Of a stretch of DNA of 64,000 nucleotides, positions 9,651 through 32,456 are shown piece after piece. The notes under the pieces were generated by a model, which was not told the origin of the DNA, searched no databases, and saw nothing but the letters and a program-made list of their open reading frames with translations. The stretch lies in assembly GCF_027595985.1 (NCBI RefSeq), contig NC_073305.1, positions 87,910,626 through 87,974,625 on the forward strand, given 5' to 3'. Each line of letters begins with the position of its first letter. The first letter of the stretch is position 1. Both the position numbers and the translations under genes were made by a program. Source of the DNA: Sorex araneus (Eukaryota > Chordata > Mammalia > Eulipotyphla > Soricidae).

Positions 9651-10020
9651 CTGTGGTGAATTAAAAAAGATTTAAAAATAAAAAGGTTAAGCTGAAATGC
9701 AAAATCTGGGTCTGTGAGGTAGGCAGGTGCTGGCCATGAGTGTGGCACTTCATGATTTCCCAAGAACCACTGGAGTAACTGTCAAGTGCTATGCACCGAT
9801 GGGTGCATCACCCCCCCACACACCCGTATATTAAATGCAAAGCTCATAAGTGATCTGAAATTTTGAATCAGTTTCATCAAATGCCGAACTTGTGTGATAG
9901 TTTTTTAAAGTTGCGTAGAACCTGGTAATGATGATTTTTTTTGAGAGGTAAGGATGAAAGTATTTATTAAACATAATTTACCCTTCCTTCTCAAAAGCAG
10001 GTTTTAATACAATCTGAATA

Positions 10021-10268
10021 GCACTGTAGCACTGTCGTCCAGTTGTTCATCGATTTGCTCGAGTGGGCACCAGTAACGTCTCCATTGTGAGACTTGTTGT
10101 TACTGGTTTTGGCATATCGAACATGCCACGGGGAGCTTGCCAGGCTCTGCCGTGCGGGCAAGATACTCTTGGTAGCTTGCGGGGCTCTCCGAGAGGGATG
10201 GAGGAATTGAACCTGGGTTGGCTGCGTGCAAGGCAAACGCCCTACCTGTTGTGCTATTGCTCCAGCCC
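10021..10268 (-). mobile_element. Tail-less long-body SINE, 3' half of 5S chimaera
   Basis: Read on the minus strand it begins 'gggctggagcaatagcacaac' and keeps the B box (GGTTCAATTCC). It continues with the long body and ends 'acagtgctacagtgc' with no A-tail. Its 5' end joins 5S rRNA sequence directly. The target-site duplication (10009-10020 and 10387-10398, acaatctgaata) encloses both parts, so they moved as one RNA. Confidence 0.9.
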
Positions 10269-10388
10269 TTAGGCCTACAGCACCCGGTATTCCCAGATGG
10301 TCTCCCATCCAAAAACTAACCAGGCCCGACCCTGCTTAGCTTCCGATCAGATGAGATCAGGCACGTTCTGGGTGTTATGGCTGTAAAC
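10269..10388 (-). pseudogene. 5S rRNA-derived sequence fused to SINE
   Basis: About 120 bp, close to full 5S length. The minus strand reads 'gtttacagccataac' through 'ggtcgggcctggttag' and 'tggatgggagacc' to 'gggtgctgtaggcct', matching the vertebrate 5S order. Differences include a short deletion in the 'tctgatcggaag' segment and the change of 'agtacttgg' to 'agtttttgg'. The region of the 5S internal promoter (A box, intermediate element, C box) is largely kept. The T-run terminator is absent and transcription would run into the SINE. This is a retroposed copy, not a genuine 5S gene, because it sits inside a shared target-site duplication. Confidence 0.92.
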
Positions 10389-10549
10389 AATCTGAATATG
10401 ACAGAAAATCTTGCTATTCATTCTTTATAGAGTTCCACATCATCAATCCTCAAAAGAAATTTCTCCTGTTCCTGGAAGTGGCTCATGCAAAGAGTAATTG
10501 ACATGGAAGGTCTAAGGAACACAAATATGTATGAATATTTTGGGGGGCT

Positions 10550-16914: not shown

Positions 16915-17596
<682 letters not shown>

Positions 17597-21825: not shown

Positions 21826-22115
21826 GATAGCGCAGTGGGTAGGGCATTCACCTAGCATGCAGCTGACCCGGGTTCAATTCCTCTGCCCCTCTCGGAGAGC
21901 CCAGAAAGCTACCGAGAGTATCTCGTCCACATGGCAGAGCCCGGCAAGCTACCGAGAGTATCTCGTCCGCATGGCAGAGCCTGGCAAGCTACCCGTGGCA
22001 TATTCAATATGCCAAAAGCAGTAACAACAAGTTTCACAATGGAGGGAGACGTTACTGGTGCTCGCTCGAGCAAATCGATGAACAATGGGATGACAGTGAC
22101 AGTGACGGTGACAGT
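21826..22115 (+). mobile_element. Tail-less long-body SINE with internal duplication
   Basis: A near full-length long form: head 'gatagcgcagtgggtagg', B box GGTTCAATTCC, then the long body, ending in a short (GTGACA)n run with no A-tail. A unit of about 40 bp ('agctaccgagagtatctcgt'...) is tandemly duplicated at about 21908-21987. Confidence 0.9.
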
Positions 22116-32207: not shown

Positions 32208-32448
32208 CCTGGACTGGAGCAACAACACAGCGGGTAGGGCTTGCATGTGGCCAACCCGGTTGATTCCTCTGTCCCTCTCAGAGAGCCTGGCAAGCTACCG
32301 AGAGTATCCCACCCGCACAGCAGAGCCTGGCAAGTTCTCCATGGCGTATTCAATATGCCAAACACAGTAACAACAAGTCTCACAATGGAGACATTACTGG
32401 TGCCCGCTCGAGCAAATCGATGAACAACCGGATGATAGTGCTACAGTG
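32208..32448 (+). mobile_element. Tail-less long-body SINE
   Basis: Near full-length: head 'ctggagcaacaacacagcgg', long body, ending 'gatagtgctacagtg' with no A-tail. The 8-bp repeat ctacctgg at 32200-32207 and 32449-32456 is a likely target-site duplication. Confidence 0.9.
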
Positions 32449-32456
32449 CTACCTGG

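Follow-up and report, generated by a model that had tools for sequence, protein, structure and literature searches.

A 5S rRNA and a SINE inside one target-site duplication

The window, by which we mean the whole stretch of 64,000 nucleotides of shrew DNA analysed here, carries on its minus strand a composite of a 5S rRNA sequence (10271-10388), the two bases AA and a full-length tRNA-headed SINE (10021-10268). The 5S part is matched by the Rfam 5S model (RF00001, model 1-120) at 10272-10388 on the minus strand with 82.2 bits, and this is the sole 5S match within the 64-kb window. The composite and its surroundings comprise the following features:

10009..10020, minus strand: 3' copy of the 12-bp target-site duplication, sense TATTCAGATTGT
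10021..10268, minus strand: long-form SINE with a tRNA-related head, a body of about 180 bp and a ACAGTGCTACAGTGC tail without poly(A)
10269..10270, minus strand: AA (sense), two bases that separate the end of the 5S from the start of the SINE (5S gene end GTAGGCCTTTT compared with the joint)
10271..10388, minus strand: 5S rRNA nt 1-120, with 11 substitutions and a 2-nt deletion relative to the 5S gene of the same genome
10311..10315, minus strand: TTTTT (sense) in the 5S part, through A77T and C78T; a pol III terminator motif
10387..10398, minus strand: 5' copy of the 12-bp target-site duplication
10399..10410, minus strand: target flank GATTTTCTGTCA, directly upstream of the duplication

A previous reading of this DNA, made from the sequence only, had the 5S joined without linker to the SINE head. 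The 5S is nearly complete, and the SINE is present end to end and directly adjoins it, both on the minus strand; but the joint reads GTAGGCCT-AA-GGGCTGG, and its AA, which neither part accounts for, intervenes between the two.

The duplication, ACAATCTGAATA, stands at 10009-10020 and 10387-10398 with 12 of 12 bases identical around the whole 5S-SINE unit, and overlaps the first two 5S bases of the window copy. The flanks agree over 12 bases around the whole unit, compared with 3 around the SINE alone and 2 around the 5S alone. Among 5,000 random placements at the same spacing, five gave 12 or more identical bases (15 to 24 bases), which we take, by assumption, to be simple repeats. A single duplication around both RNAs with none around either part is a hallmark of template switching and is present in the window copy; a second hallmark, a joint that links the acceptor RNA at its 3' end to the element at its 5' end, both in sense, is likewise found. 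The sequence-only reading is thus upheld in its view that one duplication encloses both halves and that one chimaeric product, from a template switch or a joined RNA, was inserted; neither half has a duplication of its own.

Two SINE forms in the window

The window carries two SINE forms with related tRNA-type heads. BLAST of the window with the SINE returned 33 rows, five of them for four long copies and 28 for the short form. Short copies carry A-rich tails. The long form, to which the composite belongs, has an extra body and ends without an A-rich tail in ACAGTGCTA or ACAGTGA-type repeats, a microsatellite-like 3' tail as in SINEs mobilised by RTE/Bov-B elements. The other long-form copies of the window lie at 32211-32449, 21827-22104 and, incomplete, 2129-2253. 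Copy 21827-22104 contains an internal 40-bp tandem duplication of the body (2.5 copies, at 21896-21993), and a separate 500-base AGAA microsatellite of about 125 units occupies 17092-17591. Among the genomic long-form copies described below, L007, L019 and L011 have ACAGTGATACAGTG tails (with a variant in L026), unlike the ACAGTGCTA tails of most fetched copies. The heads fit those of the shrew Sor elements, and the SINEs may be of this kind. Sor is described as a T-minus SINE of the shrew genome (PMC11240701).

Further composites in the genome

We scanned the window's own genome (2.41 Gb) with the 390-base unit as query and scored 40 of 7,659 candidates. The 40 comprised the window copy, four matches spanning both parts (L009/L002, L010/L003, L011 and L012) and 35 that covered the SINE only or a few bases more; no 5S match was found in the 25 of these 35 that were fetched. 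A check for 5S over 61 loci in total gave seven with a match, all of them the window copy, L009 or L010 fetched more than once. In all five composites the 5S and SINE parts are both in sense and in the same order.

It had been proposed beforehand that many copies of the junction would mean a composite family and a single copy a one-off chimaera. Searched with a free 4-base gap over the whole genome, the junction was found at 1,564 places at up to 3 mismatches compared with 200 for the control, an excess to be expected because the SINE head is so common; among 30 loci fetched from these places, 5S lay upstream in two, the window copy and L010. The exact junction occurs at one place in 2.4 Gb, the window copy, which speaks against a multiplied family built on the window joint. 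The four further composites among the 40 scored candidates show equally that 'one-off' is wrong. With up to 3 mismatches allowed, the direct joint GGGTGCTGTAGGCCTTT-GGRCTGGAG matched at three places, its control at 0. It is exact in L010 and has 2 mismatches in the window copy; the third place, C9:3200662 with 3 mismatches, is a long SINE without a 5S match and was not counted as a composite. Well-preserved composites of these joint forms therefore appear to be few; the genome has at least five composites in all. The joint had no match in collections of viral, bacterial and archaeal records, nor the SINE body in a collection of viral records, which says little in either case.

The other composites are less clearly bounded than the window copy. 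L010 has a duplication of 11 of 11 bases, which is T-rich, L009 one of 9 of 12 with 3 mismatches, and L011 and L012 have none that is clear. The case for insertion in a single event is consequently firm for the window copy, fair for L010 and weak for the other three.

5S genes and forms of the joint

The search for 5S genes scored 47 of 93,756 candidates, and the 30 best of the 47 were fetched (29 on contig C9, one on C2). The best matches form an array with a unit of about 1.6 kb at C9:33.22-33.39 Mb (L063, L064 and L066-L092). All 30 fetched loci have the gene end GTAGGCC-TTTT-GCGGG, and 28 of the 30 5S sequences are identical, including L065, which is in reverse orientation; the two others differ by one base. 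The 3' end of the array 5S, GTAGGCC-TTTT, has one C more than the human 5S. L065 (C2:159818804-159818922) is a dispersed, gene-identical 5S copy, and because it keeps array-like flanks on both sides it is probably a DNA-level copy rather than a retrocopy.

The joints of the five composites read GGCCT+AA (window), GGCCTTT+AA (L009), GGCCTTT (L010), GACCTTT (L011) and GCTGTA (L012), followed in each by the first bases of the SINE; these are four joint forms, one of them shared by L010 and L011. The 5S parts start at nt 1, 1, 16, 4 and 1 and reach nt 115-122; the SINE parts all start at the usual first bases of the head (GGGCTGG twice, GGACTGG twice, GGACTAG once). Four of the five joints end in the 5S U-tract, the 5S part of the fifth ending at nt 115, and the GCGGG that lies downstream of the gene is found in none of the five. 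This places the joining at the level of RNA.

The composites probably arose separately

The 5S parts carry 11 (window), 9, 5, 20 and 8 substitutions relative to the gene. Most of these are private to one composite: C26T is found in four copies, C36T and C94T in two each, and no other recurs, in a comparison without a control for the 5S. From the majority sequence of 33 copies the SINE parts differ by 5.6, 6.5, 6.8, 13.0 and 14.8%, and in a SINE tree of low support the five composites do not form one cluster. Pairs of composites share 3.8 derived SINE bases, compared with a mean of 3.81 in random sets of five plain copies; of 2,000 such sets drawn from 27 plain copies, a fraction of 0.504 shared as much as the composites or more, the plain genomic controls being the best matches to the window unit rather than a random sample of the SINE family. 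Neither the joints, nor the 5S changes, nor the shared derived SINE bases gave any sign that the composites descend from one another. For L010 and L011, which share a joint form, the joint gives no argument for separate origins. These comparisons suggest that the five composites probably arose separately, the main weakness of this case being the duplications of the four composites other than the window copy. The fusion of 5S and SINE looks like a recurring accident rather than a new multiplying element.

Insertion sites of the two SINE forms

We tested 20 of the 28 short-form rows, leaving out the partial or weaker rows 19057, 29067, 29737, 31117, 36708, 41390, 41731 and 52918. With one or two mismatches allowed, and without a null for comparison, 19 of the 20 showed a duplication; AA opens 15 of these 19, which is how L1 sites begin.

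Twenty long-form sites were read by eye. Three belong to the window composite, L009 and L010, two to plain copies within the window and 15 to plain genomic copies, of which 25 had been fetched. Left out before the count, because no duplication was clear or the only one lay in simple sequence (L016, L019), were the composites L011 and L012, the copy at 21827 in the window, and ten plain genomic copies (L008, L014, L015, L016, L018, L019, L022, L026, L029 and L031). None of the 20 sites is L1-like, and with a repeat tail in place of poly(A) the long form shows neither this LINE-1 hallmark nor the TT/AAAA site. TA stands at or across the start in 14 of the 20, and TTT lies 6-13 bases upstream in 11, a distance range that was set after the first sites had been seen. 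The T-run has a background of 14% at TA sites in the window and of 18% at TA in the copies' own flanks, against which 11 of 20 gives p = 2e-5 and p = 2e-4, respectively. The sites kept include L013, L017 and L023, which the automatic duplication pass had missed (the second copy of L017 is imperfect); without these three the T-run is found in 8 of 17 (p = 0.001 and 0.005 by background) and TA in 12 of 17.

A T-run plus TA (Tn-TA) is reported as the signature of RTE-clade LINEs and their SINEs (PMC13295347), and the flank GATTTTCTGTCA with the TA that begins the duplication of the window composite fits it. The long form resembles the Bov-B/RTE-mobilised SINEs of that report in its repeat tail and, at part of the sites read, in a T-run about ten bases upstream and a TA at the site; unlike in those SINEs the signature is weaker here, the T-run being absent from 9 of the 20 sites. 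From this resemblance we infer that the long-form SINE may have been mobilised by an RTE-type enzyme. With A-rich tails and A-rich duplication starts in one form, and repeat tails and TA sites in the other, the two SINE forms seem to use different insertion systems.

How the two RNAs were joined

We consider it likely that the composite was made by a template jump during target-primed reverse transcription. The reverse transcriptase, that of a non-L1, RTE-type LINE, would have begun at the SINE tail, copied the SINE RNA as far as its 5' end and there switched to 5S rRNA, landing on the U-tract at the 3' end of that molecule. The chimaeric cDNA would have entered as one unit, giving the single 12-bp duplication.

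The 5S and SINE sequences each occur alone in the genome, as two separate insertions side by side would have it, but neither part of the window copy is flanked by a duplication, no A tail follows the 5S, the joint falls at the natural ends of both RNAs, and the order of the parts is identical at five loci. We rejected this explanation on the duplication pattern, and its probability is negligible. Scarcely more probable is read-through of a 5S gene or pseudogene into a SINE inserted just downstream, with later retroposition. Both parts would then lie in a single RNA; however, four of the five joints stop in the U-tract, the gene's downstream GCGGG appears in none, and BLAST of the 30 fetched 5S loci (3,119 bases each) gave no SINE match at E 1e-10. 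Read-through from the 5S gene was rejected because the downstream gene DNA is absent from the composites. A SINE3-like family of 5S-tRNA composites, multiplying from a master copy and with the window copy as a member, could draw on the presence of at least five composites in one genome, on the joint form common to L010 and L011 and on the two promoter types in the sequence. Against it stand the single exact junction in 2.4 Gb, a direct joint confined at up to 3 mismatches to two known composites and one SINE without a 5S match, the four joint forms among five copies, the lack of any excess of shared derived SINE bases and the TTTTT within the 5S part of the window copy. Because scoring covered 40 of 7,659 candidates, the scan may have passed over members that are old and diverged; an amplified family was rejected on the junction counts and the shared derived bases, and we hold it to be very improbable.

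The least improbable alternative to a template jump is ligation of the 5S and SINE RNAs, followed by copying of the joined RNA in one pass, which predicts the same end-to-end, sense-sense structure and single duplication; RNA ligation and template switching are named as alternatives for U6/LINE-1 chimaeras (PMC13174262). Against ligation, the extra AA in two of the five joints (window and L009) is more readily accounted for by a jump at which the enzyme added bases without a template. In addition, a pol III SINE RNA with a 5' triphosphate and a 5S with a 3' hydroxyl are poor substrates for RtcB ligase, which also counts against ligation. We therefore regard prior ligation as rather unlikely and infer that the parts were joined by the template jump, during reverse transcription.

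Transcription of the window composite

The sequence-only reading had suggested that, as in SINE3 elements, Pol III might transcribe the composite from the 5S promoter. The window copy has no substitution in 5S nt 50-72, where the A box and the intermediate element lie; G93A and C94T fall in the C box (nt 80-97). As the TTTTT lies within the 5S, upstream of the SINE, a pol III transcript begun at the 5S should end before it reaches the SINE. With this terminator motif, and no sign of mutual descent among the composites, the suggestion finds no support, and transcription of the window composite from the 5S promoter appears unlikely. The tRNA-type promoter might still drive transcription of the SINE part by itself. 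The window composite is probably now a dead retropseudogene without a role.

Relation to known chimaeras and 5S-headed SINEs

Template-switch chimaeras of U6 are described with LINEs of the L1, L2 and RTE clades and with two L2-mobilised SINEs, Mon-1 and AnolisSINE2 (PMC4476161). The shrew composites are like the U6/LINE and U6/SINE chimaeras in combining a small structured RNA with a retroelement, template switching being invoked in each. They differ in their acceptor, 5S rRNA instead of U6, and in their element, which is a tRNA-headed SINE that ends in a repeat tail. Human 5S/LINE-1 chimaeras are reported in 27 cases, 20 of the 27 within one duplication, and are typically antisense, truncated and L1-made (PMC13174262). 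They too consist of 5S rRNA and a retroelement inside one duplication, whereas here the 5S is in sense and nearly full length and the element lacks poly(A).

For HaSE3 of Helicoverpa, the authors propose a template switch, and the shared 3' tail resembles an RTE LINE (PMC3272025). HaSE3 likewise joins 5S rRNA to tRNA-derived SINE sequence; unlike the shrew composites it is a family in which the 5S replaces the tRNA head, whereas here the whole head is kept and no family was found. The same paper names 5S-derived SINE3 families from fish, fruit bats and springhare. The composites share with SINE3 families the 5S sequence at the SINE 5' end, and differ from these multiplied families in being scattered, with four joint forms; the many copies of one structure with shared derived sites that mark SINE3 were not seen among the 40 of 7,659 candidates scored or in the junction scans. 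We found no report of 5S-SINE chimaeras in shrews in the titles and abstracts of the open-licence literature. Most likely, the window composite belongs to the LINE template-switch chimaeras, an already known class.

5S-headed SINE families arose in several animal lineages, and a template switch from SINE RNA to 5S is one proposed origin. In this one mammal several apparently separate products of such a switch can be read, with the joint visible in each, and the SINE concerned does not seem to depend on L1. The point of the jump, the orientation and the preferred acceptor thereby become directly measurable, and non-L1 template switching would be extended from U6 to 5S rRNA. We suggest tentatively, as a possibility with somewhat less than even chances, that the composites represent the birth step of 5S-headed SINEs: a non-L1 LINE enzyme would jump repeatedly from the 5' end of a tRNA-headed SINE RNA to the 5S U-tail and so give composites that have two promoters and arose independently, each with the potential to found a family.
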